The notes beneath the pieces are model-generated. The model was not told the origin of the DNA. It saw nothing but the letters and a program-made list of their open reading frames with translations, and made no database searches. Positions 1 through 53,018 of a DNA stretch of 64,000 nt are shown here, one piece after another. The position numbers and the translations under genes were made by a program. How positions within the stretch are numbered: the stretch's first letter is position 1; each line of letters begins with the position of its first letter. The DNA comes from Pelagibius sp. CAU 1746 (lineage in GTDB: Bacteria > Pseudomonadota > Alphaproteobacteria > Kiloniellales > Kiloniellaceae). The stretch is taken from the NCBI RefSeq assembly GCF_039839785.1, contig NZ_JBDOQT010000001.1, positions 124,001 to 188,000 on the forward strand. Reading direction: 5' to 3'.

Positions 1-488
1 TTGCCGAAGGGCACATTGTCGAAGCCCTCGGCCGTCGGCCCGGTGCCTTCCAGGTATTTCGGATTGCCCGCCGCCGACAGCGTCGTCAGGGTGCGGCCGT
101 GAAAGGCGCCGGAGCAGGAGATCACCCGCATGCGCTCCGGCTGGCCGGCGGCGTAGTGATAGCGGCGCGCCAGCTTCAACGCGCCCTCGATGGCCTCGGC
201 GCCGGAGTTGCAGAAGAACACCTTGTCGGCGAAGGAGTTCGCCACCAGCCGCTCGGCCAGGCGCCGGCCCTCCGGAATCTCGTAGAGATTGGAGACGTGC
301 CACAGCTTGCCGGCCTGGTCCTGCAGGACCTTCACCAGGTGCGGGTGACTGTGCCCCAGGGCGTTGACCGCGATGCCCGCCGCGAAGTCCAGGAATCGTC
401 GCCCGTCCGCCGTATAGAGATAGGGGCCTTCGCCGCGCTCGAAAGCGAGGTCGGCGCGCGCATAGGTATGCATCAAGGCGTCGCTCAC
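1..488 (-). CDS. argD: Acetylornithine aminotransferase, 5' part (runs off the window)
   Basis: PLP-dependent class III aminotransferase that converts N-acetylglutamate semialdehyde to N-acetylornithine in arginine synthesis. The reverse strand encodes about 162 N-terminal residues ending at the window edge. Seen directly: [41 protein letters not shown] and GAFHGRT, the usual ArgD order of substrate and PLP-phosphate binding segments. I chose the GTG at 488 because AGGAG lies 8 nt upstream of it; the in-frame ATG at 473 has no such site. The lysine that binds PLP lies outside the window. ArgD rather than another class III enzyme is a family judgement. Confidence 0.85.
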
Positions 489-773
489 GGACCGAACTCC
501 TATACTTTATTCGGCAGGCCTCCCGGGCCTGACAAAGGCCCGACAGGCCCCCACGGGCCCGAAAGGGCCGAAATGCCTCATGTTCTGGGGCGGGGACGGG
601 TCACTTTCAGGCCGGCGCCGGGCTTGCCGGGGCCGGCCAGGTCCAGCTTACACGGCACGCAGCCGGGGCTGAAGGGGCGACACTATTGGCAGAATGGGGC
701 TCGCTGTCAACCGGAGCGCCCGGATTCCGGCGGTCCTGCGGGGATTTAGGGGCTGGCAACGGCGGCGCGCCGG
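489..773. other. Intergenic region with GGCC-rich inverted repeats upstream of argD
   Basis: This is a gene-free stretch between argD and the first TraB/GumN gene. From 515 to 569 it is packed with GGCC cores. Two small hairpins are visible: CAGGCC/GGCCTG around a 5-nt loop (515-531), and GGCCC/GGGCC around GAAA (556-569). They sit in the likely argD leader, transcribed leftwards, and could form structure in the mRNA. I see no convincing promoter hexamers or coding potential. Confidence 0.4.
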
Positions 774-1763
774 TCACTCCAGCCTGGTGACTGTGTAGCC
801 GCGCTGCTCCAGCAAGCTGAGCATCCCCCGCTCACCGGGCATGTGCAGGGCGCCCACCGCCACGAAGGTCGAGCCCTTCTCGAAGACCGGCAGCAGGCTT
901 TCAACCATGGTTCGGTTGCGCCCATCCATGATCCGGTCGTGGAAACGCCGGGCAACTTCGGGGTCCATCTGCTCCAGTTGGCGCTCCCACAGCGCATAAC
1001 GTTGCGCCAGATCGCCCTTCAGATAGAGCTCAAGCCGCTCCACCTTGGTTCGCGGCTTGTCGAAGTTGTCGACGGCCGAGTTCAGCATGGAAACCTGATC
1101 CTCCAGCGGGATGCCGGCGAAAACATTCAAGTGCTCTCGTGTGGTCTCCAGGGGAATGACCTCCTTCCCCTCTTCGAGCGCCCGGCTCTGTAGCCAGTCG
1201 TCGAGGATCGGCTTGCCCTTTTCGCGGCGGAGACCGGCTGAAATTTCCCGGCCGCCGATCATGAACCAGACGACCCAGGGCTGCAGGCGGTCGAGGCGCT
1301 TGATACGGTAATAGCGGAATAAGAACAGCGCCTTCATGCGGCGGTAGCTCTCCTCGCCGAGGACGCCCTGCAGGGTGGCGTCCTCCGCCAGCTCGAAGTA
1401 GGGGGTCTTTTCTTCTTCGCTGATATCTTCCTCCAAGCCCGTCTCGAAAGCTGCAAACCGCGCCTTATCGAAAGCCGTCTCGGCCGCCTCCGGCAGGTCG
1501 AACACCTCCGGATTGGTTACGTGGATGGTGCCGAAGAGATAGCTCGGCTCCTGGCCCGGCAAATCGATCTGCCAGATGCGGCCTTCGCCGAAGGAGACGT
1601 CTGCCGGTTCCGGCAAGGGCTGCAACTGATCGCTGGGCCAAACGGTCGGCAGCGTCGGCCCGCAGCCGCCGACGACGAGCAGCAGTACCGCCGCGACCGG
1701 TGCGGCGAGACGGCGCGCGGTCTCGCGCCGCCAAAGGCCCAAGCTGTCGGACAGCCCCCTCAC
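774..1763 (-). CDS. TraB/GumN family lipoprotein (paralog 1 of 5)
   Basis: This 329-residue protein belongs to the TraB/GumN/Tiki-like superfamily, whose eukaryotic Tiki members are metalloproteases with two GxxH motifs. Seen: lipobox VVGGC with Cys34, so probably an outer-membrane or periplasmic lipoprotein; GRIW at 61-64; GTIH at 78-81; a Glu in the following AAFETG segment; GRNRTMV; and GALH at 304-307 followed by MPGERG near the C terminus. Both GxxH motifs are intact. It starts with GTG one base after the stop of the preceding paralog, so it is the last gene of a three-gene transcription unit. The substrate is unknown. Confidence 0.85.
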   Translation of the reverse strand: MRGLSDSLGLWRRETARRLAAPVAAVLLLVVGGCGPTLPTVWPSDQLQPLPEPADVSFGEGRIWQIDLPGQEPSYLFGTIHVTNPEVFDLPEAAETAFDKARFAAFETGLEEDISEEEKTPYFELAEDATLQGVLGEESYRRMKALFLFRYYRIKRLDRLQPWVVWFMIGGREISAGLRREKGKPILDDWLQSRALEEGKEVIPLETTREHLNVFAGIPLEDQVSMLNSAVDNFDKPRTKVERLELYLKGDLAQRYALWERQLEQMDPEVARRFHDRIMDGRNRTMVESLLPVFEKGSTFVAVGALHMPGERGMLSLLEQRGYTVTRLE

Positions 1764-1764
1764 G

Positions 1765-2724
1765 TCAATGCAGCTTGGTTACCTTGTAGCCGCGCTCCTC
1801 GAAGAGCCGCAGCACGCCTTCCTCGCCGGGCAGGTGGCCGGCCCCCACCGCGACGAAGGTCGAGTCCTCGCGCATGTGGGGCAAGGCGCGTTCGACGAAG
1901 ATGTGATTGCGGTTGGTCAGGATGCGGAAATCCAGCATCTCGGCGACTTCCGGCGGATAGCGGCTCATGCGCTCCTCACTGAGCGCCATCAGCAGTCCCA
2001 GGTTGCCGTCGACGTAGGCCTGCACGATCGGGGCTCCCTGCCGCTCCTGATGGTAGTGGTCGACGAGGGCGGTCAGCATGGCGACCTGCTGGTCCATCGG
2101 AATGGTGTCGTATTTGACGAAGCCTTCCTCGACGCTCTCCAGGCCGACCACCGTCTTGCCTTCGTCACGCGCCCGTTTTTGCAGCCAGCCGTCGAGGACC
2201 ACCTCGCCCGACTTGGAGTCGTCGTCGTTGCGGTAGAAGGTGCCCCGCGCGCCCCCGAAGATGTCCCACATCACCCAGGGCTTGAGCTCGTTATTCGGTT
2301 TCCAGTAGCCCAGCCCCTTGATGATATTGGTCAGGTCACCGTAAACCCGGGCGCCGACCAGGCTCCTGAGAGTGGTCCCTTCGGAGAGCCTGTAGCGCTC
2401 ACGGTCGATACGGTTTTCCTCTTTCTTGGCCGGATCGTAGTCGTATTCGAAAGCGGCAATCGGCGAGTCGACGAAGGCCCGCTCTGCGGCAAGAGGGATA
2501 TCGAGCACCTTGGAGTCGGCGATATGAAAGGTCCCGAAGACGTAGCTCGGCTTGATGTCTTCGCCTTCGATCTTCCAGATGCGCCCCTGATCGTAGGGCA
2601 TATCCAGCGGTTCGGGCAGCGGCAGCGGCTCGGGCGTCGCACAGGTTGCAAGCAAGAGCAGGAGCGGCGGCATCGCCAAGGGCCGCGGCAGGCAGCATCG
2701 CAGTTGGCGAAAAACGTTCTTCAT
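1765..2724 (-). CDS. TraB/GumN family lipoprotein (paralog 2 of 5)
   Basis: This is a 319-residue paralog of its neighbours. A hydrophobic N terminus ends in the lipobox LLATC (Cys28). GRIW at 48-51 and GTFH at 64-67 are followed by AAFEYD, then NRNHIFVE, and a C-terminal GAGH at 294-297 with LPGEEG. The two histidine motifs expected of the superfamily are present. The ATG at 2724 has GAGGA about 7 nt upstream. It lies 9 nt after the stop of paralog 3 and 1 nt before paralog 1, which points to one operon. The middle of the protein differs from the others, for example a lysine- and glutamate-rich stretch after the first motif, suggesting diverged substrate preference. Confidence 0.85.
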   Translation of the reverse strand: MKNVFRQLRCCLPRPLAMPPLLLLLATCATPEPLPLPEPLDMPYDQGRIWKIEGEDIKPSYVFGTFHIADSKVLDIPLAAERAFVDSPIAAFEYDYDPAKKEENRIDRERYRLSEGTTLRSLVGARVYGDLTNIIKGLGYWKPNNELKPWVMWDIFGGARGTFYRNDDDSKSGEVVLDGWLQKRARDEGKTVVGLESVEEGFVKYDTIPMDQQVAMLTALVDHYHQERQGAPIVQAYVDGNLGLLMALSEERMSRYPPEVAEMLDFRILTNRNHIFVERALPHMREDSTFVAVGAGHLPGEEGVLRLFEERGYKVTKLH

Positions 2725-2733
2725 ATCTGATCC

Positions 2734-3702
2734 TCAGTGCAATCGTGTGACCCTGTATCCCTCTTGCTCCAGCAGGAAGAGGACGCCTTCTTCGCCGGCC
2801 AGATGGGCGGCCCCCACGGCAACGAAGGTGCTCGCCTCCGCCATCAGGGGCGCCATGCGCTCCACCATGATGCGGTTGCGGTCGTCGATCAGGCGGAGGT
2901 CGATCGTCTCGGCCGTGTCGGGCGGCAGCCAGCTCAGGTACTCGCGCCACAACGCCTCGAACATGGCGAGGTCGCCGTTCAGGTAGAGCTCGACCTTAGG
3001 CACCCAGGGCGCGTGATCGGAGTACCGATCGAGGGCCAGCTTCAAAAGATCCGCCTGCTGATCCAGAGGGATCTTGTCGTAGATGTCTATCTGCTCTTCG
3101 ATCGTCTCCAGGCCGACCACCTTCTTGCCGGATTTCGCCGCCCGATCCTCGAGCCAGTCGTCCAAGACCATGCCGTGGCCACTGGGCTCCAGGCGGCCGT
3201 AGTCGACGAAACCGAAGGCCTCACCGCCCATATACTCCCAGAACACCCAGGGCTTGATGTTGTTCTTGGGGACGAGCATGCGCTGCTTCATGTGCCAGCG
3301 CAGGATCCCGAAGCTGCGCGAGCCGATGAGCTCCTCCAGCGTCTCGTCGCCGGTCAGCTCCATGCGTTCGTCATAGAGCGTCTCCACGGCCACAACGGTA
3401 TCGTCGATCAGTTCGAAGGCCGCCGTATCGGCCGCGGCGAAGGCGGTCTCGACCGCCGGGGGGAGATCCATGACCCGCTTGTCGTCGACATGCATGGTCC
3501 CGAAGACGTAGCTCGGGGCCAGGCCCTCGCGCTCCACCTTCCAGAGACGACCCTGGCCATGAGGGATGTCCGGGCGTTCCGGGAGGGGATAGGGCTGACG
3601 CGGGGTGCAGGAGGCCAGCACCAGCAGCGCCAGGGTAGCCGCCGCCACGGCGCCGCGGCGCCGCAAAAGCGCAAGAAACTCCCCCGGAACCTGCCTACCC
3701 AT
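2734..3702 (-). CDS. TraB/GumN family lipoprotein (paralog 3 of 5)
   Basis: This is a 322-residue lipoprotein from the ATG at 3702. A longer reading frame continues upstream into paralog 4, but the signal peptide (RRRG, a hydrophobic run, then the lipobox LVLASC with Cys32) begins properly only at this ATG, which has a GAAGGGG purine run upstream. Motifs: GRLW, GTMH at 68-71, AAFELI, DRNRIMVERM, and GAAH at 297-300 with LAGEEG. It is the first gene of the 3-2-1 operon. A terminator after paralog 4 (3791-3820) separates it from upstream genes, so it needs its own promoter in 3703-3790. I cannot assign one confidently. Confidence 0.85.
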   Translation of the reverse strand: MGRQVPGEFLALLRRRGAVAAATLALLVLASCTPRQPYPLPERPDIPHGQGRLWKVEREGLAPSYVFGTMHVDDKRVMDLPPAVETAFAAADTAAFELIDDTVVAVETLYDERMELTGDETLEELIGSRSFGILRWHMKQRMLVPKNNIKPWVFWEYMGGEAFGFVDYGRLEPSGHGMVLDDWLEDRAAKSGKKVVGLETIEEQIDIYDKIPLDQQADLLKLALDRYSDHAPWVPKVELYLNGDLAMFEALWREYLSWLPPDTAETIDLRLIDDRNRIMVERMAPLMAEASTFVAVGAAHLAGEEGVLFLLEQEGYRVTRLH

Positions 3703-3790
3703 GGGCCCCCACCCCTTCACATCAGCTCTCCCAGGCCGCCAGAATTGCATCCTGGGCGCGTGTTGTGAAGCTTGACAATTCAACCGGAAG

Positions 3791-3820
3791 AAAAAAACTT
3801 CGCCGGGCGGGGCGCCGGCG
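3791..3820 (-). terminator. Rho-independent terminator after TraB/GumN paralog 4
   Basis: Read on the minus strand this is a CGCCGG/CCGGCG stem with an 8-nt GC-rich loop, followed by AAG and seven T residues. It starts 6 nt after the stop codon of the gene ending at 3827. Stem, position and T-tract all fit an intrinsic terminator, and it splits the five-gene array into separate transcription units. Confidence 0.75.
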
Positions 3821-3826
3821 GAGAGG

Positions 3827-4759
3827 CTAATGGACCCGGGTGACGCGGTAGCCGCGCCGCTCCAGCAGGCTGAGGATGCCCTCCTCGCCGGGCATGTGCA
3901 GGGCGCCGACCGCGACGAAGGCGCGGCCACGTTCCAGCAGCGGGATCATGCGCTCGACCATGGCCCGGTTGCGCTGGTCCAGGAAGGCTTCCTTGAACCG
4001 GCGCGCACTGGCGTCGCGCTCTGCCTCTTCCTGGAACTCGCGGTAGGTCCGGCGCATATCGCCGACCAAGTAGTCCTGTAGCAACTGTTCGTACTGGCCC
4101 GGCTCGGCATCCAGGCGGTCGAGTTGCTCGCGCATGACCTCGGCGAAGTCGCGCTCGGGAATCAGATCGAAGACCCCCATATGCTCCTCCAGGGTCTCCA
4201 GCCCCTCGACCCGCATGCCCAGGTCATAGGCCCACTGGATGAGGTAGAAGTCGAGCGCGAGGTCGCCGTCGAGCTGGCGCCGGTACTCCTCCGGCGGCAT
4301 GGAGAAGATGTAGATCAGCATGAAGGGGTGCAACTGCCCCACCACCTTCGCCGGCAGGCCGTACTTGGCGGCCCGCGCCACGACGCGGGCATAGGTCTTC
4401 TTGTCGAGTTGGCCGGCCAGGTCGCAGCGGCAAGCACGCGTCTGGCCGGTGCCGGCGAGCACGGCCTCGCGTTCCTCGGGCGTGAAGCGCAGCTCGAAGG
4501 CGGCCTGCTCGGAGCGCTGGAAGACCTCCTGAATCGGCTGCGGCAGATTGCGCACCCGCCGGTCGCTGACATGCATGGTGCCGATGATGTGGCTGGGCGG
4601 CGCAGTACCGCGCTCGACACGCCACATGCGGCCCTCGCCGTGCTTGATCGGGTGGGGGTCCGAGGCCGCGGCCAGCCCGGCCCAGGCCGCCAGCAGCAGG
4701 GCGGCAAAGGGGAGGCTGCAGCGGCGCAGCAGCGCGGTCATACCTCGGGATGCAGTCAT
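3827..4759 (-). CDS. TraB/GumN family periplasmic protein (paralog 4 of 5)
   Basis: This 310-residue paralog has a cleavable signal peptide instead of a lipobox: a hydrophobic run ending WAGLAAAS at about residue 33. GRMW, GTMH at 60-63, AAFELRF, QRNRAMVERM and GALH at 285-288 with MPGEEG are all present. It is the only one with a CRCDL cysteine pair in the middle region. I chose the ATG at 4759 because CGAGG lies 6 nt upstream; the ATG at 4741 has its purine run too close. It is followed by an intrinsic terminator and separated from paralog 5 by 154 bp, so it may be monocistronic. Confidence 0.85.
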   Translation of the reverse strand: MTASRGMTALLRRCSLPFAALLLAAWAGLAAASDPHPIKHGEGRMWRVERGTAPPSHIIGTMHVSDRRVRNLPQPIQEVFQRSEQAAFELRFTPEEREAVLAGTGQTRACRCDLAGQLDKKTYARVVARAAKYGLPAKVVGQLHPFMLIYIFSMPPEEYRRQLDGDLALDFYLIQWAYDLGMRVEGLETLEEHMGVFDLIPERDFAEVMREQLDRLDAEPGQYEQLLQDYLVGDMRRTYREFQEEAERDASARRFKEAFLDQRNRAMVERMIPLLERGRAFVAVGALHMPGEEGILSLLERRGYRVTRVH

Positions 4760-4864
4760 GGGCGGCCTCGCCTGGCAGCTTCGACAGTGCGACCGGCCCC
4801 GTCTCGCAGGGGTATCTTAGGCAAGATCAATCTCCGGTTGCGAAAGAGCCTGGGCGGAAAACCT

Positions 4865-4889
4865 TAAAAATCCGGCAAAGCGGGGATTT
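4865..4889 (-). terminator. Possible weak terminator after TraB/GumN paralog 5
   Basis: On the minus strand AATCC pairs with GGATT around a short loop, followed by five T residues, about 25 nt beyond the stop of the gene ending at 4914. The stem is short and interrupted, so this is tentative. Confidence 0.3.
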
Positions 4890-4913
4890 GTCTCAAAGCA
4901 TCTGCAGGCGGCG

Positions 4914-5828
4914 TCAATAGAGCCGGGTCACCCGGTAGCCGCGCCGCTGCAGCAGGCTGAGGATGCCCGCCTCGCCCGGCAGGTGCAGCGCGCCCACGGC
5001 CACGAAGGCCCGGCCCTGCTCCAGCAGCGGGACCATGCGCTCGGCCATGGTGCGGTTGCGGTCGTCGATCATGCGCTCGGCCAGACGCCGGGTGGCCTCG
5101 ACGTCATCGACACCGGAATAGTCATTGGCCACCGCCATGAGGGTGGCCGTGTCGCCCTTCAGATAGGCGCGGAACATGGTGTTGAACTGGGCCACGATGT
5201 GCTCGTGGTCGTCCAGCAGGTCGGCGACCATGGCGACCTGCTCGGCCTCGCCCAAACTGTCGAAGATCTCGATCTGCTCGGCATAGCTCTCCAGGCCCTG
5301 CAGGGCCTTGCCGCGGCGCCGGGCCTCGTCTTGCAGCCAGAAATCGAAGGCCGGCTCGCCCTGGGCCTGGCGGATCACCTCGATGCGCGGGCGCGCCAGG
5401 AAGAGGCCGAGCGCCCAGGGCTTCATGCGCTGCAGGCCCTCGGGCGTGACGCCGAAGTCGGCCACCGCCGCCGCCGCGCGTTCGAAAAGCTCGGCCCCGA
5501 CGATGTCCTGCAGGTTCCGCCCCGGCGCCAGTTGCATGGCTTGGCCCATCTCCGCCGCGCCGTCCTGACCGGCGACGATCTCGAAGACGGCGACGCGCGA
5601 CTGCTCCAGGGCCTCGTCGATCTGTCTGGGCAACTCGCGCAGGCGCGGATCGGTCGAGTGCATAGTGCCGAGCAGGTAGCTCGCCGGGGCACCGTCCTTT
5701 TCCAACTGCCACAGCAGGCCCTCGCTGAAGGGAATGTTCTCGGCGGCGGCCGGCGTGAGCCACAATACGGCGGCGGCCAGCACCGCCAGCGGCGCCGCGA
5801 AAATCTTGCCCTGCAGTGATCTCAGCAT
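4914..5828 (-). CDS. TraB/GumN family periplasmic protein (paralog 5 of 5)
   Basis: This is a 304-residue protein and the most upstream member of the array. A signal peptide ends TPAAA before Glu30. GLLW, GTMH at 54-57, VAVFEIV, DDRNRTMAERM and GALH at 279-282 with LPGEAG match the other four. The C-terminal block FVAVGALH...RRGYRVTRLY is nearly identical to paralog 4, so these two are probably the closest pair, in line with both having ordinary signal peptides. The ribosome-binding site in front of the ATG at 5828 is weak. The ABC-2 permease pair ends 52 nt upstream of it on the same strand. Confidence 0.85.
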   Translation of the reverse strand: MLRSLQGKIFAAPLAVLAAAVLWLTPAAAENIPFSEGLLWQLEKDGAPASYLLGTMHSTDPRLRELPRQIDEALEQSRVAVFEIVAGQDGAAEMGQAMQLAPGRNLQDIVGAELFERAAAAVADFGVTPEGLQRMKPWALGLFLARPRIEVIRQAQGEPAFDFWLQDEARRRGKALQGLESYAEQIEIFDSLGEAEQVAMVADLLDDHEHIVAQFNTMFRAYLKGDTATLMAVANDYSGVDDVEATRRLAERMIDDRNRTMAERMVPLLEQGRAFVAVGALHLPGEAGILSLLQRRGYRVTRLY

Positions 5829-5880: not shown

Positions 5881-6732
5881 TCAGGGCCGGATCTTGTAGC
5901 CCGCCGCGAAGAGCCGCCACGCCACCAGCGCCAAACCCAGGTTCAGCGCGGCGAGCAGGCCGGCGCCCAGCGCCAGCGAGGTTTCCGCCTGGCCGATGAA
6001 ACCGGCCCGGAAGCCGTCGACGGCGTAGAATACGGGGTTGAAGTAGATCCAGTCCCGAAACGCCTCCGGCAGCCGCTCCACCGAGAAGAAGGTTCCCGAA
6101 AGGAGACCCAGCGGCACGATGAGGAAACCCTCCACCGCGCCGTAGTGGTCCCAGCGCTCGGCCCAGAGTCCCGCAATGGTGCCCATGAGCGCGAAGAGCA
6201 GCGCCGCCAAGACGGCAAATCCGAGAACAAAAATTGCATCGAAGTATGAATAATCCGCGAAGACCGCGGTCCCCAGCGCCACCAGCCCGCCGGAGATCAG
6301 CCCGCAGGTGGCCGCCGAGAGCACGAAGCCGGACATGACCTCCAGCGCGCTCAAGGGCGCCATCTGCACGTCGGCGATGGTGCCCTCCATCTTGTCCAAC
6401 ACGATCATGGCCGCGGAATTCTGAAAGGCGGTGTAGGCCACGGCGTAAAGCGCCACGCCCGGCGCGATGAACTCCTTCAGGCCGACCCCCGGCAGCATCT
6501 CGCCGAGGCCGCGCTGGCCGACCACGAAGACCAGCAGGAACAGCATGCTGGAAACCAGCGGGCCGGCCAGGGTCTCCAGCCCGAAGCGCAGGAAGCGGGC
6601 GAGGCCGTAGCCGTAGTAGACCGTCCAGAGGCCGCGCCAGTTGAAGCGCCGGAAGGCCAGGGGGCGCCAGGCGCGGAAGGCCAGCCCCGCCGCGGCGCCT
6701 CCCGCCCTGGGGCTGCCCCCGGCCTCCGTCAT
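5881..6732 (-). CDS. ABC-2 type transporter permease (second of a coupled pair)
   Basis: This is a 283-residue inner-membrane permease of the ABC-2 class (YadH-like). It has about six hydrophobic helices with the conserved region LLSGTFFSVERLPEAFRDWIYFNP before the last helices and a C-terminal AAGYKIRP. The ATG at 6732 overlaps the stop of the preceding permease in an ATGA, so translation is coupled. The short arginine-rich N terminus containing FNWRGLWTVYY resembles VNWRGLWTLYM of its partner, showing common descent. The pair presumably forms a heterodimer with an ATPase encoded elsewhere; none is adjacent. The substrate is unknown. Confidence 0.85.
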   Translation of the reverse strand: MTEAGGSPRAGGAAAGLAFRAWRPLAFRRFNWRGLWTVYYGYGLARFLRFGLETLAGPLVSSMLFLLVFVVGQRGLGEMLPGVGLKEFIAPGVALYAVAYTAFQNSAAMIVLDKMEGTIADVQMAPLSALEVMSGFVLSAATCGLISGGLVALGTAVFADYSYFDAIFVLGFAVLAALLFALMGTIAGLWAERWDHYGAVEGFLIVPLGLLSGTFFSVERLPEAFRDWIYFNPVFYAVDGFRAGFIGQAETSLALGAGLLAALNLGLALVAWRLFAAGYKIRP

Positions 6733-7544
6733 GGCTTCAGCCGGTAGCCGGTGGCGAACATCCTGTAGGTCACCACCCAGAGGAAGAGGTTGACCCCGAC
6801 CATGACCGCGATCCCCAGCGTCAGGTTGCCGTCGGCGTGGCCGATGAAGCCGTAGCGGAAGCCGTCGATCATGTAGAAGAAGGGATTGAAGTGGGCAACG
6901 ACCTGCCAGGCCTCGGGCAGCCGCTCGATGGAATAGAATGTGCCGGAAAGGAAGGAAAAGGGCGTGATGACGAAATTGGTCACCGCGGCGATGTGATCGA
7001 ATTTCTCCGACCAGATGCCGCCGATCATCCCGAGCAGCGACAGCATCAGCGAGGCCATGATGCTGTGAAAGAGGATGAAGAGCACATTGTGGATCGAAAC
7101 GGGGACGAAGAGCCACATGCCCAGGCCGACGGCCAGGCCGACCATCAGGCCGCGGGTGACGCCGCCGGCGGCCATGCCCAGGGTCAGCTCGGCCGGCGAG
7201 AGGGGCGGCATCAGGACGTCGACGATGTTGCCCTGCACCTTGGCGATGACCAGCGAGGAGGAGGTGTTGGCGAAGGCGTTCTGCACCATGGCCATCATGA
7301 TGAGGCCGGGCGCCAGGAAGGCCGCGAAGGGCACGCCGCCGACGACGCGTCCGCCGCCGCCCAGCGCCAGGGTGAAGATCGCCAGAAACAAGAGCGTCGT
7401 CACCATCGGCGCCAGCAGGGTCTGCGTAAAGACGTTGAGGAAGCGGCGCACTTCCTTCATGTAGAGGGTCCAGAGGCCGCGCCAGTTGACGCGCCCCATT
7501 TGCCTGACGCGGGTGCCGCCGAGCGAGAGGGTCTGATGTTCCAT
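6729..7544 (-). CDS. ABC-2 type transporter permease (first of a coupled pair)
   Basis: This is a 271-residue ABC-2 permease. It has a cytoplasmic N terminus with VNWRGLWTLYMKEVRRFL, then about six membrane segments, the ABC-2 signature stretch FLSGTFYSIERLPEAW...HFNPFFYMIDGFRYGFIG, and an ATGYRLKP C terminus. It overlaps the downstream permease by 4 nt. The two share the same architecture but differ in sequence, so this is an old duplication. It is divergent from recX; the 53-bp gap would have to hold both promoters. There is no ATP-binding subunit in this window near the pair. Confidence 0.87.
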   Translation of the reverse strand: MEHQTLSLGGTRVRQMGRVNWRGLWTLYMKEVRRFLNVFTQTLLAPMVTTLLFLAIFTLALGGGGRVVGGVPFAAFLAPGLIMMAMVQNAFANTSSSLVIAKVQGNIVDVLMPPLSPAELTLGMAAGGVTRGLMVGLAVGLGMWLFVPVSIHNVLFILFHSIMASLMLSLLGMIGGIWSEKFDHIAAVTNFVITPFSFLSGTFYSIERLPEAWQVVAHFNPFFYMIDGFRYGFIGHADGNLTLGIAVMVGVNLFLWVVTYRMFATGYRLKP

Positions 7545-9723: not shown

Positions 9724-11412
9724 CTACTCCGCCGCGCGGGGCGTCGCCGGCGCGGCCGCCGGCAGGTCGAGGGCGCTCTTCAAGACATGGATGTCCAGCG
9801 GCTGACTGCGGCCGCGCACGTCGATCTGCTGGTGCGGGAAGTCCGCCAGATCGATGCCGGCATGGGCGGCCAGCGGCGCCGAGACGATGAGCTGGGCCTC
9901 GTAGTCCTTGGTCAGCGCTTCCAGCCTGCTGGCCGTGTTCACCGCGTCCCCGATGGCGGTGAGCGAGGTTGCCGGACCATAGCCCATCTCGCCGACGATC
10001 ACCGCGCCGCTGTGCAGGCCGATGCCGATGCGCAGAGGCTCCGGCAGGTCGGCGGCCAGACTACGGTTCAGTTCCTCCAGATGTTCGGCCATGCGCCGCG
10101 CCGCCTCCAGGGCATTGCGGCTGCCCGCTTCTACGCCCTGCTCGATCCCGAACAGCGCCATGACGCCGTCGCCGATGAACTTATCGATGCGTCCGCCGGC
10201 TTCCTCCACCGCCGTGCCCATGGCGGTGAAATAGCGGTTGAGCACGAAGACCACGTCGTAGGGCAGGCGGTCTTCCGACAGCGCGGTAAAACCGCGCAGG
10301 TCGGCGAAGAGAATGGCGATATCGCGCTCGTCGCCCTGCAGGTAGCCGGCGCGCGGCTGGGCCAGGGCCGGGCCGCCGGTGGCCGGCAACAGCGGCGTGA
10401 TCTCGCAGTCCGCGAAGACCCCGGTCTGGCAGGCCAGACGCACGTTGGGCGCGGCGCCGACGCGGGCCAGCACCCGGCGTTCCTCCGGCCCCGGCGCCGG
10501 CAGGCTGGCGCCGCCGCGGCCGACGCGCACCCGGCAGGTGGAACAGCGCCCGCGCCCGCCGCAGACCGAGGCGTGAGGCACCCGCGCGCTGCGGCTCGCC
10601 TCCAGGATGGTGACGCCCTTGCGCACGCTGACGCTGCGCCCGCCGGGATAGCTGAGCCGGACCATGCCTTGGCGATGCTGCCACAGGCGCCACAGTCCGC
10701 GGGCGGCCAGAGTGAGGGCCAGCAAGACGAAGAAGCCGATCACCACAGCGTCGCGCAGCGCCAGCACGTCGGCGCGTTCTGCCGCCGAGGGAGCATTGCT
10801 CAGCACCAGAAGCTGGGCGATGTAGTCCGGATTCTCGGCGGCGCGGCGCAGCACCTCGCGGCCGGCCGCCAGATAGCCGGCCAGCGCCAGCGCCGGCAGC
10901 AGGACCGCCGAGGCGAGGCCATAGGGGGCGAAACGCGGGTACCAGCCCTTGAGGCGCAGCCAGAGGTGCAGGCCGATGCAGCCGTGGGTCCAGACCACCA
11001 GCACCAGCAAGGTCTGCTGCAGGGCGTCGCGCGGATTGAAGCCCCATTGCACCGCGACGATGTAGAGATAGCTGTCGTCGACGCCGTAGATCTCGTGCAC
11101 CAGCCGGGTGCCGAGAATGTGCAATGCGGCCAGGGGAATGATCAGCACGCCGAAGAGGTAGCGCAGGGCGTCGAGCGGCGGCATGACCAGGCGGTCGCGC
11201 TTGAAGATCGCGTAGTAGGCCAGGCTGAGGTGGACCAGCAGCGCCGTGTAGAGCAGCACAGTGGGCAGCAGGCCGCGCCAGAAGGCGACGAAGACCTCCC
11301 GCCCTGCCTCCAGCACAGGAAAGGACACGGCCCCCAGCGCCATGTTCAAGAGGTGCGTCAGGACATAGAAGAAAAGGGTAAGGCCGCTGATCAGCCGCAG
11401 GCGCCGGACCAT
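9724..11412 (-). CDS. Membrane adenylate/guanylate cyclase with b-type cytochrome-like and 2Fe-2S ferredoxin domains
   Basis: This is a 562-residue three-part signalling enzyme. Residues 1-240: about six membrane helices carrying histidines typical of haem-b four-helix bundles (H20, H61, H98, H106, H143, H149). Residues 250-340: a plant-type 2Fe-2S ferredoxin domain with C284, C290, C293 and C328 (SVCGGRGRCSTC...LACQTG). Residues 360-550: a class III nucleotidyl cyclase domain with metal aspartates D371 (LFADLRGF) and D415 (KFIGDGVMALFG) and GEMGYG...TAIGDAVNTASRLE. The architecture implies that quinol or redox state is read by haem and iron-sulfur centres and turned into cAMP; that is inference from domains. 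The family occurs in alphaproteobacteria, usually annotated simply as adenylate/guanylate cyclase. Confidence 0.88.
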   Translation of the reverse strand: MVRRLRLISGLTLFFYVLTHLLNMALGAVSFPVLEAGREVFVAFWRGLLPTVLLYTALLVHLSLAYYAIFKRDRLVMPPLDALRYLFGVLIIPLAALHILGTRLVHEIYGVDDSYLYIVAVQWGFNPRDALQQTLLVLVVWTHGCIGLHLWLRLKGWYPRFAPYGLASAVLLPALALAGYLAAGREVLRRAAENPDYIAQLLVLSNAPSAAERADVLALRDAVVIGFFVLLALTLAARGLWRLWQHRQGMVRLSYPGGRSVSVRKGVTILEASRSARVPHASVCGGRGRCSTCRVRVGRGGASLPAPGPEERRVLARVGAAPNVRLACQTGVFADCEITPLLPATGGPALAQPRAGYLQGDERDIAILFADLRGFTALSEDRLPYDVVFVLNRYFTAMGTAVEEAGGRIDKFIGDGVMALFGIEQGVEAGSRNALEAARRMAEHLEELNRSLAADLPEPLRIGIGLHSGAVIVGEMGYGPATSLTAIGDAVNTASRLEALTKDYEAQLIVSAPLAAHAGIDLADFPHQQIDVRGRSQPLDIHVLKSALDLPAAAPATPRAAE

Positions 11413-32482: not shown

Positions 32483-34954
32483 CTATAGTCTGACCCGGCG
32501 CAACCTCAGTGCGTTGGTCACCACGGAGACCGAGGAGAGGCTCATGGCCGCCGCGGCAATGATGGGCGACAGCAAAATGCCGAAGACGGGGTACAGAATC
32601 CCGGCTGCGATCGGTACACCGGCGGCGTTGTAGAAAAAGGCGAAGAAGAGGTTCTGCTTGATGTTGCCCATGGTCGCCTCGGCGAGTCGGCGGGCCCGCA
32701 CGATGCCGTTGAGATCGCCTTTCACCAGGGTGAAGCCGGCGCTTTCGATGGCGACGTCGGCGCCGGTGCCCATGGCGATGCCGACATCTGCTTGTGCGAG
32801 GGCCGGGGCGTCGTTCACGCCGTCGCCGGCCATGGCGACCTTGGCGCCCTCGGCCTGCAGCTCCTTGACGATGCGCGCCTTGTCCTCCGGCAGCACGTCG
32901 GCGCGGATCTCGTCGATGCCGAGGCGCCCGGCGACGGCTTTCGCGGTGCGCTCGTTATCGCCGGTCACCATGACGATGCGCAGGCCCTCTTGGTGCAACG
33001 CCTTCAACGCTTCCGGCGTGGTTTCCTTCACCGGATCGGCAACGCTGACCAGGCCGGCGACCTTCCCGTCGACCACGACGAACATCACGGTCTCGCCCTG
33101 GTCGCGGCGTGCGCCGGCCTCTTCGGCGGCGTGGCTGCTCTCCAGTCCCAGCTCGGCGAGCAGTGCGGCGTTGCCCAGCGCCACCCCGCGGCCCTCGACC
33201 CGGCCGGTCACGCCCTTGCCGGTGATCGCGTTGAAGTCCTCGGCCTTGGCCAGGGCGACACCGCGTTCCGAAGCGCCGGCGACGATGGCCTCGGCCAGGG
33301 GGTGTTCGCTGCCGCGCTCCAGCGAGGCGGCGAGACGCAGCAGTTCGTCCTCGCCGACTCCCGCCTCCGGCAGCACCGCCGCCAGCCGTGGCTTGCCCAG
33401 CGTCAAGGTCCCGGTCTTGTCGACAATCAAGGTGTCCACCTTGGCGAAACGCTCCAGGGACTCGGCATTCTTGATGAGCACGCCGGCCTGGGCACCGCGC
33501 CCGGTGGCGGTCATGATCGACATGGGCGTGGCGAGGCCCAGGGCGCAGGGACAGGCGATGATCAGCACCGAGACCGCCGCCACCAGGCCGTAGGCCATGG
33601 CCGGCGAGGGTCCCCAGATCGACCAGGCGATGAAGGCAAGCAGGGCGACGCCCACCACCGCCGGCACGAAGACGCCGGCCACCTGGTCGGCCAGCTTCTG
33701 GATCGGCGCGCGGCTGCGCTGCGCCTCGGCCACCATCCCGACGATCTGCGACAGCACCGTGTCGGCACCGACGCGCTCGGCTTCGATGACCAGGGACCCG
33801 CTGCCGTTCAGCGTGGCGCCGGTCACCTGATCGCCGACGGCTTTCTCCACCGGCACGGGCTCGCCGGTCAGCATGGACTCGTCGATGGCGGAGTAACCCT
33901 CGACCACCTTGCCGTCGACCGGCACCTTGTCGCCGGGGCGCACGCGCAGATGATCGCCGGACTTCACCTGATCCAGCGGAATTTCCTCCTCCTGCCCGTC
34001 GGCGCGGATCACGCGGGCGGTCTTGGGCGCCAGGTCCAGCAAGGCGCGGATGGCGCCGCCGGTGCGCTCGCGGGCGCGCAGCTCCAGCAACTGGCCCAGC
34101 AGCACCAGCACCACGATGACCGCCGCCGCTTCGTAGTAGACGCCGACGTGTCCCTGGGCGTCACGGAAGCCCGCGGGGAAGATGTCCGGGGCCAGGGTCG
34201 CGACAACACTGAAGACATAGGCCGCCCCGACGCCGATGGCGATGAGGGTGAACATGTTGAGGCTGCGGTTGACGATCGACTTCCAGCCGCGCTGGAAGAA
34301 GGGCAGGCCGGCCCAGAGCACCACCGGCGTCGAGAGGAGCAGCTCGGCCCAGGCACTGATGCCCTCGCCCAGCGCCTCGCGCAGAGGCAGGCCGAAATGC
34401 GGCGCCATGGCGAGAACCAATACCGGCAGCGTGAGGACGCCGCCGATCCAGAAGCGCCGGGTGAAGTCGACCAGTTCCGGATTGGGGCCCTCTTCGCCGG
34501 TGGGGATGCCCATGGGCTCCAGCGCCATACCGCAGAGCGGACAGTCCCCCGGGCCGTCCTGGACGATCTCCGGGTGCATGGGGCAGGTGTATTGGGTGCC
34601 CGCCGGCATGGGCTCCGGCGCCGGGCGGCCGGCCAGATAGGTCTCCGGCTCGCTCTCGAACTTCTCCTGGCAGCGCGCGGAACAGAAATAGAAGCGCTGG
34701 CCCGCGTGCTTGGCCACGTGGCGCGCGCTCGCCCGGTCCACCGACATGCCGCAGACCAGGTCCTCGGCCTTGATGTAATCCCCGGGCGCGGCGGCGAACT
34801 TGTCGCGGCAGCCGCTGGCGCAGAAATGATAGAGGTGCCCCTCGTGCTCGTAGGCCGGCTTGCCCGCCGCGGGATCCACGGTCATGGCGCAGACGGGATC
34901 GCGCACGACCTCCGCCGGCGTCCGGTTGTCTTGCTGCTGTGCTGGGGTGGACAT
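32483..34954 (-). CDS. copA: Heavy-metal P-type ATPase with two YHS domains (Cu+ exporter type)
   Basis: This is an 823-residue P1B-ATPase. The N terminus has two YHS domains (DPVCAMTV and DLVCGMSV, about 18-108) and a metal-binding segment [26 protein letters not shown] (about 119-144) in place of the usual HMA domains. Then come eight membrane helices with the transport motif CPCALG (C468, C470), the phosphorylated D512 in [10 protein letters not shown] in SEHPLAEAI and [10 protein letters not shown]. These motifs indicate Cu+/Ag+ export. Its promoter is a CueR-type site at 35006-35036. The regulator gene is not beside it. Confidence 0.87.
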
Positions 34955-35005
34955 AATGGGCTGCCTCTTCCTGCCGCGCCGGCACCTCCGCCGGCCTCTG
35001 GCTTG

Positions 35006-35036
35006 TAGGTAGGGCTTCCAGTGACTGGAAGGTCAA
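35006..35036 (-). promoter_or_regulatory. CueR/MerR-type promoter of the copper ATPase
   Basis: On the minus strand, -35 TTGACC (plus coordinates 35031-35036) and -10 TACCTA (35006-35011) are 19 bp apart. Between and overlapping them is the dyad CTTCCAG TGA CTGGAAG (35015-35031). Spacing and dyad closely match the E. coli copA promoter bound by CueR (CTTCC...GGAAG). It lies 52 bp upstream of the ATPase start. Confidence 0.87.
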
Positions 35037-35191
35037 GCCCCGCCGATTACGGGGCGGGAACGGGCGACACAAACAAGCCGCCCTAACCATTCGCACTAAT
35101 TCGCACGTAGCCAGCGGCGGCGAACCTAAGCTAACCTACAGTTCCAGGCTACATACTGCGCACCACCACCCGGTGAGGAACCCGCTAAGCT

Positions 35192-36385
35192 ATGACACGG
35201 CTCCCTCTGGCTCTTGCCGCACTGATCGCGCTCACCGCCTGCGAAGACGGCAATACCTATGTCGAGCCGCCGCCGCCCAAGGTGACCGTCGCCGCTCCGG
35301 CGGTCCAGGAGATTACCGACTACCTCTATTTCACCGGCACCAGCCAGGCCGCGGCCGTCGTCGACATACGCGCCCGCGTTCCGGGGGCCCTGGAGAATAT
35401 CTCCTTCGCGCCCGGCACCTTCGTCCAGGCCGGCGATCCGCTGTTCATCATCGATCAGCGCGAATACGCCGCCGACCTGGAAATCGCCAAAGCACAGCTA
35501 CAGAGCGCCCGGGCCCAGAAGGTCGAGGCCGACAAGGCGCTGGCCCGCGCCGAAGAATTGATCAAGCGCGGCAACGTCTCCCAGGCCAAGCTGGACGAGG
35601 CCGAGGCCGCCGCCCGCAGCGCCACCGCCGATGTCGCGGTCAAGCAAGCCGCCGTGCGCCAGGCCGAATTGAACCTGGAGTACACGGATATCCGCGCGCC
35701 GATCGAAGGACGCATCGGCCGCAACCTGGTGGACGCCGGCAACCTGGTGGGACAGTCGGAAGCGACGCATCTGGCCACCATCACCGATAGCGATCCCATG
35801 TACGTCTACTTCAACATCAACGAGCGCGACCTTCTGACGGTCATGGAACGCATGCGCGGCGGAACCGGCGGCGGCACACCGGGAACGCGCGACGACTTCC
35901 GGGTCGAGATGTCGGTCGGCGGCAAGGAAGACTACAGTTTCATCGGAGACCTGGACTTCGCCGAATCGTCCCTCGACCCCGATACCGGCACCCTGGAGCT
36001 GCGGGCGCGATTCGCCAACCCAGCGGACCCGGAACCGGTGCTCTTGCCAGGCCTCTTCGTACGACTGCGTGTCCCCGTGGCACAGCGCCAGGACATGCCC
36101 TTGGTCACCGAGCGCGCCATCGGCCTGGACCAGGCGGGCCGCTATGTCTATGTGGTCGGCGCGGAGAACGTGGTCGAGAAGCGCTCCATCGTCACCGGGC
36201 AGTTGATCGACGGCCTGCGCGTGGTCGAAAGCGGTCTTGCCGCAGGAGAGAAAGTGGTGGTCAACGGCATCCAGCGCGCCCGCGGCGGCGCCAAGGTAAG
36301 CCCGGAAGAAGCGGAGATGACCGCCTTCTCGGCCTCGGCGCTCAAGCGCACCGCCCAGCAGGCCAGCAAAGCAGCAGCCAACTGA
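35192..36385 (+). CDS. RND efflux periplasmic adaptor (membrane fusion lipoprotein)
   Basis: This is a 397-residue adaptor of the AcrA/MexA type. It is lipid-anchored through Cys17 in the lipobox ALTAC. It has VDIRARVPGALENISFAPGTFVQAGDPLFIID (first lipoyl half), an alpha-helical hairpin rich in A, K and E (about 93-150), the second lipoyl half LEYTDIRAPIEGRIGRNLVDAG, and beta-barrel and membrane-proximal domains. It joins the RND pump encoded 15 nt downstream to an outer-membrane channel that is not in this window. Confidence 0.9.
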   Translation: MTRLPLALAALIALTACEDGNTYVEPPPPKVTVAAPAVQEITDYLYFTGTSQAAAVVDIRARVPGALENISFAPGTFVQAGDPLFIIDQREYAADLEIAKAQLQSARAQKVEADKALARAEELIKRGNVSQAKLDEAEAAARSATADVAVKQAAVRQAELNLEYTDIRAPIEGRIGRNLVDAGNLVGQSEATHLATITDSDPMYVYFNINERDLLTVMERMRGGTGGGTPGTRDDFRVEMSVGGKEDYSFIGDLDFAESSLDPDTGTLELRARFANPADPEPVLLPGLFVRLRVPVAQRQDMPLVTERAIGLDQAGRYVYVVGAENVVEKRSIVTGQLIDGLRVVESGLAAGEKVVVNGIQRARGGAKVSPEEAEMTAFSASALKRTAQQASKAAAN

Positions 36386-36400
36386 GGCGGCGCAGCGGAG

Positions 36401-39400
36401 ATGTTCTCAAAGTTCTTCATCCAGCGCCCGATCTTCTCCTCGGTCATTTCGATCGTCATCGTCATCGCCGGCGTGGTCACCCTGGGAACCTTGCCGATCG
36501 AGCAGTTCCCGCAGATCACCCCGCCCACCGTGCAGGTCTCCGCCGCCTATCCCGGCGCCAATGCCGAGGTCGTGGCGGAAACCGTGGCCGCGCCGATCGA
36601 GCAGCAGGTCAACGGCGTCGAGAACATGATCTACATGTCCTCGACCAGCGCCAACGACGGCTCCTACAACCTGACGGTCAGCTTCGAGGTCGGCAGCGAC
36701 CTCGACCTGGCGCAGATCCTGGTGCAGAACCGGGTAGCGCTGGCCGAGGCCAACCTGCCTGAGGAAGTCACCCGCCAGGGCGTCAACACCAAGAAGAAGT
36801 CCAGCAACATCATTCTCTTCATCGCGCTGACGTCCGAAGACCCGTTGCACGACGAGATCTTCCTCAGCAACTACGCTACCCTCAACATCCGCGACATCTT
36901 GAGCCGCATCCCCGGTGTCGGCGAGGTCTTCATCTTTCCGCCCAGCGACTATTCCATGCGCATCTGGCTCGACCCGCCGAGCCTGAAGGCACGCGGCCTG
37001 ACGACCGGCGACGTGCTCTCTGCGATCCGCGAGCAGAACGTGCAGGTAGCGGCCGGGCAGATCGGCCAGCCGCCGGTGCCCAGCGGCCAGTCTTTCCAGT
37101 ACACCGTCAACGTGCTGGGCCGCCTGGCGGACATCGAGCAGTTCGAGAACATCGTCATCCGCTATGCCGAAGACGGCGGCACCATCTACCTGAAGGACAT
37201 CGCCCGGGTGGAACTGGGCGGCAAGAGCTACGACGTCAACGCCGCGCTCAACGGCGCGCCCTCGGCCGCCGTCGCGGTCTACCAACTGCCCGGCGCCAAC
37301 GCCCTGGATGTCGCCACCCAGGTCCGCGCCGCCATAGAGAACATCAGCAGCCGTTTCCCGACAGGCATGTCCTATCAGATCCCCTACGACACGACGATCT
37401 TCGTCCAGAAGTCGATCGAGGAAGTCTACATCACTCTGTTCCAGGCGGCGGGGCTGGTCTTCCTGGTGCTGTTCCTCTTTTTGCAGGACTGGCGCGCGAC
37501 GCTGGTTCCGGCCGTCACCATTCCGGTATCGCTGATCGGCACCTTCGCGGTCATGGGCGTTCTGGGCTTCTCCCTCAACATGCTGACACTCTTCGGGCTG
37601 GTGCTGGCCATCGGCATCGTGGTCGACGACGCCATTGTCGTGGTGGAGGCGGCGACCGCCCATATCGAGCGCGGCATGAAGGCACAGGCGGCGGCGATCC
37701 AGGCAATGAAGGAGGTTTCCGGCCCGGTCGTCGCCACCACTCTGGTGCTGCTGGCCGTCTTCGTGCCCGCCGCCCTCCTGCCCGGCATCACCGGCGAGAT
37801 GTACCGCCAGTTCGCGGTAACCATCGCCGTGGCCACGGTGTTCAGCTCGATCAATGCCCTGACCATGAGCCCGGCCCTTTCGGCCCTGCTGCTGCGCCCC
37901 CCCAAGCAAAAGAAGAACGCCTTCTTCCGCGGTTTCGACAAGGTCTTCACCACGGGGGAAAACGGCTATTCGGCGCTGGTCGCCAAGCTGGTGCGCGTCA
38001 CGGCCCTGGTCATGCTGCTGTTCCTCGGGCTCTTCGCCCTGACCGGCTGGCAGTTCGGCAAGCTGCCGACCGCTTTCCTGCCCGTCGAAGACCAAGGATA
38101 CGTAATCACCGCCGTACAGTTGCCCAACGCCGCTTCCCTCGAGCGCACCGACGCGGTTCTGCAAAAGATCGACGGCATCCTCGCGGACATGCCCGGCGTC
38201 GAGAACTGGGTCACCATCGGCGGTTACTCGATCATCGACGGCACCAACGCCGCCAATGCCGCCACCGTCTTCATCACCATGACGCCCTGGGAGGAGCGCC
38301 AGGATCCCAGCCTCTCCCAGCAAGCCATCCTCGGCCGCCTGCAAGGCGCCTTCCGCCAGATCCAGGAGGCCATTATTTTCGCCTTCCCGCCGCCGTCCAT
38401 CCCCGGCCTTGGCGTTGCAGGCGGCTTCCAGATGCAGCTTCAAGATCGGGGCGGCGTCGGCCTGCAAGAACTGCAGCGCATGACCCAGGAGGTCCTGGTT
38501 GACGGCAACGCCCAGAGCGGCCTCAGCAACCTCAACTCCACCTTCCGAGCCAACGTGCCGCAGCTCTTCGCCGAGGTCGACCGCGTGAAGGCCAAGTCGC
38601 TGCAGGTTTCCCTCGACCAGGTCTTCGGCGCGCTGCAGACTTATCTCGGTTCGTCCTATGTGAACGACTTCAACAAGTTCGGGCGCACTTGGCAGGTGAA
38701 GGTGCAGGCCGACCACCGCTACCGCGTCGAGCCGGAGGACATCCGACGCTTGGAGGTGCGCAATGCCGAGGGCGACATGGTGCCGCTGGGTACTCTCGTG
38801 CGGGTCGACCAGACCCTCGGCCCGCAGACGGTGCTGCGCTACAACCTTTACCCCAGTGCTGCGATTACCGGCGAGGCGGCGCCGGGCTACTCCTCCGGCC
38901 AGGCGCTCGACCTCATGGAGCAGCTCGCCGCAACCAAGCTGCCCAACTCCATGGGCTTCGAGTGGACCGGCATCTCCTTCCAGGAAAAGCGGGTGGGTTC
39001 GGAATCCATCCTGGTCTTCGCCCTGGCGATCGTCCTGGTCTTCCTGGTGCTGGCCGCCCAGTACGAAAGCTGGGCCATGCCGGCGGCCGTCATCCTGGTG
39101 GTGCCGCTGGCTCTGCTGGGCACCATCGCCGCCCTGCTGGCCCGGCAGTTCGACAACAACGTCTACACCCAGATCGGCATCGTCCTGCTGATCGGCTTGG
39201 CCAGCAAGAACGCCATCCTGATCGTCGAGTTCGCCAAGGCCGAGCACGAGGCTGGGAAGTCCATCACCGAGGCCGCAATCTCGGCGGCCAAGCTGCGCTT
39301 CCGCCCGATCCTCATGACCGCGATCTCTTCCATCGCCGGCTTCATGCCGCTGGTGGTGGCCGCCGGCGCCGGCGCGGCCAGCCGCCAGGCCATCGGCACG

Positions 39401-39559
39401 GCGGTGGTGGGCGGCATGTTGGCCGCAACCATCATGTCGCTCTGCTTCACGCCGGCCTTCTACGTGGTCATGCAGCGGCTCTCCGAAATGAACCTGCGCA
39501 GGGGAAAGCAACCGCAGCGCAACGCGGCAGCGCCGCCGGCGGGCGGCGCCGGAGACTGA
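36401..39559 (+). CDS. RND multidrug efflux transporter (HAE-1 family)
   Basis: This is a 1052-residue proton-driven inner-membrane pump. It starts MFSKFFIQRPIFSSVISIVIV, the typical first helix. FEVGSDLDLAQILVQNRV and the TM4 aspartate pair in GIVVDDAIVVVEA are present, as are LAAQYESWAMPAAVILVVPLAL and GLASKNAILIVEFAK in the second half. Length and the two large periplasmic loops match AcrB/MexB. It forms an operon with the adaptor. No outer-membrane factor or TetR repressor is adjacent. A triple 12-bp repeat spans its stop codon. Confidence 0.92.
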   Translation: MFSKFFIQRPIFSSVISIVIVIAGVVTLGTLPIEQFPQITPPTVQVSAAYPGANAEVVAETVAAPIEQQVNGVENMIYMSSTSANDGSYNLTVSFEVGSDLDLAQILVQNRVALAEANLPEEVTRQGVNTKKKSSNIILFIALTSEDPLHDEIFLSNYATLNIRDILSRIPGVGEVFIFPPSDYSMRIWLDPPSLKARGLTTGDVLSAIREQNVQVAAGQIGQPPVPSGQSFQYTVNVLGRLADIEQFENIVIRYAEDGGTIYLKDIARVELGGKSYDVNAALNGAPSAAVAVYQLPGANALDVATQVRAAIENISSRFPTGMSYQIPYDTTIFVQKSIEEVYITLFQAAGLVFLVLFLFLQDWRATLVPAVTIPVSLIGTFAVMGVLGFSLNMLTLFGLVLAIGIVVDDAIVVVEAATAHIERGMKAQAAAIQAMKEVSGPVVATTLVLLAVFVPAALLPGITGEMYRQFAVTIAVATVFSSINALTMSPALSALLLRPPKQKKNAFFRGFDKVFTTGENGYSALVAKLVRVTALVMLLFLGLFALTGWQFGKLPTAFLPVEDQGYVITAVQLPNAASLERTDAVLQKIDGILADMPGVENWVTIGGYSIIDGTNAANAATVFITMTPWEERQDPSLSQQAILGRLQGAFRQIQEAIIFAFPPPSIPGLGVAGGFQMQLQDRGGVGLQELQRMTQEVLVDGNAQSGLSNLNSTFRANVPQLFAEVDRVKAKSLQVSLDQVFGALQTYLGSSYVNDFNKFGRTWQVKVQADHRYRVEPEDIRRLEVRNAEGDMVPLGTLVRVDQTLGPQTVLRYNLYPSAAITGEAAPGYSSGQALDLMEQLAATKLPNSMGFEWTGISFQEKRVGSESILVFALAIVLVFLVLAAQYESWAMPAAVILVVPLALLGTIAALLARQFDNNVYTQIGIVLLIGLASKNAILIVEFAKAEHEAGKSITEAAISAAKLRFRPILMTAISSIAGFMPLVVAAGAGAASRQAIGTAVVGGMLAATIMSLCFTPAFYVVMQRLSEMNLRRGKQPQRNAAAPPAGGAGD

Positions 39560-49651: not shown

Positions 49652-49678
49652 GCCCTGCGCGTCTGGGCCCTGCGCGTT
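49649..49678. repeat. Two tandem 15-bp repeats starting at the thiolase stop codon
   Basis: TAGGCCCTGCGCGTC (49649-49663) and TGGGCCCTGCGCGTT (49664-49678) are adjacent and agree at 13 of 15 positions. The first begins with the TAG stop of the thiolase. The second reaches the stop codon of the convergent nnrS gene, filling the gap between them. Confidence 0.75.
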
Positions 49679-51467: not shown

Positions 51468-51496
51468 CGCGCCCTCCCTTGCGCTGTTCTTGTCGA

Positions 51497-52291: not shown

Positions 52292-52295
52292 CACC

Positions 52296-53006: not shown

Positions 53007-53018
53007 GACGCGTGCTCC

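Follow-up and report, generated by a model that had tools for sequence, protein, structure and literature searches.

A 64,000-nucleotide stretch of the Pelagibius sp. CAU 1746 genome (contig NZ_JBDOQT010000001.1, positions 124,001 to 188,000; hereafter the window) carries at positions 774-5828 an array of five genes of the TraB/GumN family, which were lettered A to E from the first to be transcribed to the last:

4914..5828, minus strand: TraB/GumN gene A, 304 amino acids (aa), first gene of the array, type I signal peptide (by eye)
3827..4759, minus strand: TraB/GumN gene B, 310 aa, type I signal peptide (by eye)
2734..3702, minus strand: TraB/GumN gene C, 322 aa from the ATG at 3702, lipobox LASC
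1765..2724, minus strand: TraB/GumN gene D, 319 aa, lipobox LATC, 9 bases after C
774..1763, minus strand: TraB/GumN gene E, 329 aa, lipobox VGGC, 1 base after D

An initial annotation had described five consecutive same-strand TraB/GumN genes, which was borne out by the open reading frames (ORFs) and by profile scores. PF01963 (TraB/PrgY/GumN), with a cut-off of 26.8 bits, matched A with 218.8, B with 187.1, C with 173.6, D with 153.4 and E with 178.5 bits, and the matches spanned profile positions 1 or 2 to 262 or 263 of 263 in all five proteins. Gene C was scored from 3690; its mechanical ORF start at 3930 was too long and the ATG at 3702 was chosen instead. None of the five proteins matched an NCBIfam model at E 0.1. 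A whole-genome search with PF01963 detected exactly five genes, all in the array and none elsewhere. As these are the only family members of the genome, their clustering is not due to chance.

B to E share 31-37% identity with A. Invariant in the five window proteins are GTxH, E83, R257-N258 and FVAVGAxH (A numbering, used throughout). Within these, G54, H57, E83, G279 and H282 make up two GxxH-type motifs with a Glu between them, E83 lying 26 residues after the His of GTxH; the alignment thus confirmed that both motifs and the Glu are kept in all five. The intergenic gaps are 154 bases between A and B, 124 between B and C, 9 between C and D and 1 between D and E. Given the last two distances, C, D and E look co-transcribed. 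No terminator was evident between B and C, the 2 terminator-like sites found falling short of the 3.6 expected.

Local amplification, as proposed in the initial annotation, and conservation of the array in related genomes were both confirmed by comparison with relatives. The seven other same-genus genomes contain 4, 2, 4, 4, 4, 3 and 2 copies, those of each genome lying together on a single stretch of contig, and in every genome of the genus a pair of ABC-2 type permease genes precedes the array. The nearest named records belong to Pelagibius marinus, whose A protein is 84% identical, and to other Pelagibius or Kiloniellaceae genomes. Across the order Kiloniellales, PF01963 members occur in 39 of 61 genomes, five copies being found only in the genome studied here. 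The same locus, delimited by the permease pair and argD, holds one copy in six genera (g2, g4, g5, g11, g16 and g17), two, two and one in the three f2g6 genomes, two in seven g3 genomes and three in an eighth, and 2-5 in Pelagibius. At 68 of the 78 best loci the retrieved stretch contained a single copy. A candidate three-domain GumN fusion in G020, a frame of 1024 codons, was rejected since the fetched DNA revealed separate frames of 324, 332 and 327 codons. The array is therefore a genuine expansion of a known family, both conserved and unusual, and not, as had been suggested, an undescribed system, the locus carrying one GumN gene in related genera. Titles and abstract beginnings of the open-licence PubMed Central (PMC) papers searched mention no tandem bacterial TraB/GumN array.

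The array is flanked by the following features, at distances of 52 bases (permease to A) and 285 bases (E to argD):

5881..6660, minus strand: ABC-2 type permease 2 (PF01061, E 1.1e-18), 52 bases upstream of A
6729..7544, minus strand: ABC-2 type permease 1, YadH-like (PF01061, E 1e-30; NF011648, 225.4 bits versus a cut-off of 225)
1..488, minus strand: 5' part of an argD-like class-III aminotransferase gene that runs past the window (PF00202, E 6e-119 on the full protein, and synteny)
682..710, minus strand: sigma-70-like promoter match ahead of argD (10 of 12 positions)

The promoter-like match hints that argD forms a separate unit, weakly so, as 2 such matches were found versus 0.8 (standard deviation 1.0) expected. 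Forty fetched stretches and the window were compared as 41 loci. The order recX (on the opposite strand), permease 1, permease 2, GumN was kept in 28 of them, namely in all 8 Pelagibius, 8 g3, 4 g4, 3 f2, 3 f7, 1 f6 and 1 g5 loci. In 24 of these 28, argD follows GumN within the stretch; genes other than argD follow the array in G001, G003 and G005, and argD was not found in the stretch of the f6 locus. At the G008 locus the stretch begins inside GumN, with argD next. The remaining 12 loci have other genomic positions (8 are solitary genes of g3, one belongs to G017 and three to f5). The tandem YadH-like permeases (5881-7544, minus strand) are thus kept beside GumN across the order; no ATPase gene adjoins the pair in the window. 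In the metagenome-assembled genome Kiloniellales PL25a_bin.68 (L084, L118 and L135) the permease-GumN-argD arrangement is present on two different contigs, as would be expected if the block were duplicated or the bin mixed. A functional theme among the neighbours of single GumN genes was also sought by clustering conserved ORFs over 78 loci; the ten clusters scanned had none in common, and taxon-specific neighbours included an integrase, an asparagine synthase, an exonuclease and a dihydrolipoamide dehydrogenase-like protein. Further along, the window encodes a 562-aa protein combining a 2Fe-2S ferredoxin domain with a guanylate/adenylate cyclase domain (9724-11412, minus strand), a heavy-metal P-type ATPase containing YHS and HMBD domains, next to efflux genes of the HlyD/CusB-like and AcrB-like kinds (32483-39559), and a denitrification-related region with genes for NnrS and the respiratory nitrate reductase alpha subunit (49678-59019).

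To reconstruct the history of the array, 71 homologs from 31 genomes were placed in one tree. Neither the tree nor the residue counts include the truncated gene of G008, a G016 fragment scoring 24 bits or the members from G050, G053-G056, G058 and G059. Well-supported Pelagibius groups were A (8 of 8 genomes), B (8 of 8) and a clade of 12 rows comprising C, D and E, with subclades C in 5, D in 4 and E in 3 of the 8 genomes. A orthologs always occupy the first position of the array in the eight genomes. The siblings G001 and G005 are about 91-94% identical around the array, yet their gene orders are A-B-D-C and A-B-C-E, respectively. The upstream region and first bases of G005 C match G001 D at 86-92%, while from about L039:8900 onward the gene matches G001 C at 94-99%, which places a recombination junction at the 5' end of G005 C; around this junction the gene changes from 90-92% D-like to 94-97% C-like sequence. 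For the loss of E in G001 no such junction was found, the array end being 71-91% identical with no clean switch. Over the last 50 alignment columns, A and B use the same codon at 28 of 38 same-residue positions, versus 0.53 expected; codon sharing in the other nine paralog pairs was mixed and in some below expectation. This is suggestive of gene conversion at the 3' ends for A and B only. Altogether, the array evolves by birth and death through recombination inside the array.

Turnover of this kind could also mean that unequal crossing-over yields the extra copies as nearly neutral by-products, which provide dosage at most, A being the working gene and B to E transient. The variation in copy number from 2 to 5 across eight genomes would agree with this, as would the loss of whole genes in P. 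marinus, which lacks C, D and E and whose collinearity with the window stops at 4825 and restarts at 746, and the decay of B in G007 (ratio of non-synonymous to synonymous substitution rates, dN/dS, 0.39-0.71) and of C in G003 and G004. However, C, D and E recur in several genomes of the genus, as counted above, with dN/dS of 0.09-0.43. Purifying selection was evident: by the rough Nei-Gojobori method (NG86), dN/dS ranged from 0.069 to 0.708 over all 75 pairs within the groups A to E. The closest pairs gave 0.125 (A), 0.069 (B) and 0.092 (C), window A versus P. marinus A gave 0.261, and window C, D and E versus their nearest orthologs gave 0.239, 0.239 and 0.269. High GC content biases dS down, which in our judgement makes these values upper-side estimates. 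The counter-scenario named in advance in the initial annotation, relaxed selection on an array confined to a single genome, was not seen, as dN/dS stayed below 1 and the array occurs in the whole genus. B of G007, with its long branch (1.53) and dN/dS of 0.386-0.708 versus the other B genes, looks like a decaying gene.

Export signals divide along the same lines as the tree. Every one of the 12 C/D/E-clade rows has the lipobox pattern, followed after the Cys by A, T or G, and none of the 8 B rows has it. The pattern also appeared in 4 of 8 A rows, where the match in window A lies upstream of the start codon and that in G001 is ambiguous; A and B carry ordinary signal peptides as read by eye from the sequence. 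The split into soluble and lipoprotein members recognised at the outset therefore follows the phylogeny, with A and B on one side and the C/D/E clade on the other (signals by eye). According to the sorting rule of the Lol (localisation of lipoproteins) system in E. coli, a lipoprotein is sent to the outer membrane unless its Cys is followed by Asp. As C, D and E have no Asp at this position, they are predicted by this rule to be, probably, outer-membrane lipoproteins.

Structure prediction suggested how the conserved residues may be arranged. AlphaFold2 modelled A (residues 30-304) with a predicted local distance difference test (pLDDT) score of 95.9 and a predicted template modelling (pTM) score of 0.92, and mature D with a pLDDT of 92.3 and a pTM of 0.91. 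The modelling alignments contained 82 of 97 (A2) and 74 of 97 (A3) locus proteins in addition to the window five, the degenerate C copies of L078 and L079 being among those omitted, so residue invariance within these alignments was given no weight. In the model of A, the residues H28, E54, E151 and H253 in mature-A numbering (H57, E83, E180 and H282) stand directly after, or at most 3 residues from, strands 21-26, 50-53, 146-149 and 245-250, and D133 (D162) begins a helix. Each of the five proteins would thus form one pocket at the C-terminal ends of parallel strands, lined by H57, E83, D162, E180 and H282.

Natural loss of these residues helped to delimit the putative site. Ten of the 71 homologs lack H57, E83 or H282, owing to at least 4 changes on the tree, and these ten were compared at the 20 columns whose residue is shared by at least 93% of the 61 intact rows. 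The lost rows keep W40, N258, G285 and L293 in 10 of 10 and R257 in 9 of 10 cases, and D162 in 2, E180 in 3, G279 in 2, A277 in 4 and F275 in 5. As D162, E180 and G279 disappear along with the site, they group with H57 and E83 in function, and D162 and E180 become candidate site residues by co-loss. The motif RN-x-x-(M/F)-(V/A)-E singled out in the initial annotation does occur throughout the array, yet the Glu that ends it varies among orthologs, being present in 5 of 5 window proteins, 2 of 8 Pelagibius A and 3 of 8 Pelagibius B orthologs and 14 of 43 other homologs. Since this Glu varies and R257 and N258 are kept in site-less copies, the RN motif is unlikely to be catalytic and looks structural.

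Site-less copies were confined to genomes with several genes. All 12 single-copy genomes keep H57-E83-D162-E180-H282 (HEDEH), 10 of 19 multi-copy genomes hold at least one copy without the full set, and every one of the 31 genomes keeps at least one complete copy. Hence the assertion that catalytic residues are retained applies to the window five and does not extend to the relatives, where site residues were lost in 10 of the 71 homologs and in 3 of the 28 Pelagibius copies (among them B in G007). In g3, the last tandem gene carries G279D alone in G012 and G016, G279D with E83D and D162N in G020, and in five genomes G279D, E83D, D162N, H57N and E180Q, joined by H282Y in two. In these five second copies (L042, L046, L050, L051 and L053) site residues are swapped for similar uncharged or altered ones. 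Their dN/dS was 0.052-0.106 in ten pairs, similar to that of the first copies, which are intact (0.046-0.093 over three pairs with dS below 2). Such strong conservation implies that the inactive-looking g3 copies have some function. It also speaks against the extra copies of arrays being nearly neutral, which we regard as quite unlikely. Instead, some copies may lose pocket residues and be kept as pseudoenzymes. By a bolder and tentative proposal, which we hold to be rather doubtful, the arrays would encode multi-subunit envelope peptidases that join active TIKI-fold subunits with dead paralogs; the A/B pair and the C-D-E trio would be hetero-oligomeric, and the second g3 subunit would have been stepwise inactivated and fixed as a regulatory or substrate-presenting partner.

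No solved bacterial TraB/GumN structure was found by sequence, the three matches being at chance level (E 0.13-0.43). The closest solved fold was subunit DQ of Tetrahymena complex IV (8bqs, 7w5z and 8b6h; Z 10.5-10.9 over 204-218 residues at 10% identity, the best being Z 10.9 over 204 residues), which, unlike the array proteins, is a mitochondrial respiratory-complex subunit. Ere-family esterases and another TIKI-superfamily protein came next, among noise, with Z 3.5-4.3 (EreC 4.3, BcR135 4.0, PMT 3.9), weak similarities below the level at which the tool considers a match meaningful. ChaN and RRSP were not among the 50 structural matches listed, which excludes nothing. RRSP has a 2His/2Glu site with a Glu two residues before the first His (Glu-3900 and His-3902; PMC6254334); judged by motif position alone, Thr takes that place in the window five (GTxH).

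From the fold matches together with cues from the literature we hold envelope peptide hydrolysis most likely and metal handling its main rival. We thus favour, with moderate confidence, that the five proteins are exported TIKI-fold hydrolases, most likely envelope peptidases, in a tandem expansion subject to birth and death. One ancestral gene between the ABC-2 permease pair and argD would have grown by tandem duplication, and the array would turn over through recombination between neighbouring paralogs; A and B would be released into the periplasm, and C, D and E would be anchored as lipoproteins, probably in the outer membrane. The different targets or processing cascade envisaged in the initial annotation would be speculative. 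Tiki itself is a metal-dependent TIKI endopeptidase (PMC6254334). Several points weigh against this interpretation. RRSP, which the TIKI literature counts as a structural relative, is a metal-independent endopeptidase (PMC6254334), and PMT, another such relative, lacks the motif. Foldseek returned no match with E of 0.001 or less, and the Ere matches (Z 3.5-4.3) were no better than those to unrelated isopropylmalate dehydrogenases (Z 3.9). The ten co-loss rows go back to some four events and were themselves picked by H57, E83 and H282. Deeper branches of the tree were not resolved, a single clade of the 28 Pelagibius rows not being rejected (approximately unbiased test, AU, p 0.297), and some window dN/dS values were high (B versus orthologs 0.28-0.59). 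Finally, none of the open-licence PMC papers searched yielded an enzymatic activity for a GumN protein.

Some of the literature cues point to metals instead of peptides. The pocket might bind copper or haem as cargo, the proteins being envelope metal-handling or stress proteins whose copies add capacity across compartments. A TraB/GumN gene of Erwinia amylovora was induced by copper together with copA and cueO (log2 fold change 2.50-3.57 in all four treatments and both strains; PMC12542790), although copper induction of one homolog does not prove a copper ligand. E. coli ybaP, whose product keeps all pocket residues, lies one gene away from copA, its deletion is on a list of blue-light-hypersensitive mutants (PMC10782963, PMC11673782), and haem-binding ChaN is listed as a TIKI-superfamily fold (PMC6254334). 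Nevertheless, the array is flanked by the ABC-2 permeases and argD with no copper genes adjoining, and the heavy-metal P-type ATPase and CusB/AcrB-like genes of the window are about 27 kb away, so that we consider this reading unlikely.

Metazoan Tiki metalloproteases share the Pfam family (by literature) and two GxxH-type motifs, but Tiki acts on Wnt, whereas the array proteins are known here from sequence and models. To our knowledge, bacteria have no Wnt. The PrgY/TraB proteins of enterococcal pheromone plasmids share the family name and a presumed peptidase activity; PrgY is described as a membrane peptidase believed to break down, outside the cell, the cCF10 that the donor itself makes (PMC7117660). 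By analogy, the array could inactivate secreted peptide signals, one peptide per paralog, and the fast divergence of the paralogs (31-37% identity to A) would suit different peptides. However, PrgY/TraB serve in plasmid conjugation control, the array occupies a chromosomal housekeeping locus, and no pheromone or other peptide-signal genes were seen beside it. Solitary copies at this locus across the order suggest a general task, which leaves a signal-inactivating role very improbable.

The nearest counterparts of the proposed peptidases are bacterial GumN proteins such as E. coli YbaP, which at about 20% identity keeps the shared invariant residues, H57, E83, D162, E180, R257, N258, G279 and H282 being common to both. 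Unlike these PF01963 proteins, usually encoded by one gene per locus, the array comprises five genes including a lipoprotein subfamily. TraB/GumN proteins span bacteria to animals, and the papers searched assign no substrate to the bacterial members. Kiloniellales provide a natural series, from one gene in many genera through active and inactive pairs in g3 to 2-5 genes in Pelagibius, and the active and inactive copies of the relatives are its most useful part, being a natural way into the function of the family. The series predicts that one intact copy would always be needed, and names H57, E83, D162, E180, G279 and H282 as residues to mutate, with R257 and N258 predicted to be structural. 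With this series and these residues, the function of bacterial GumN proteins becomes testable, both in Pelagibius and with ybaP in E. coli.

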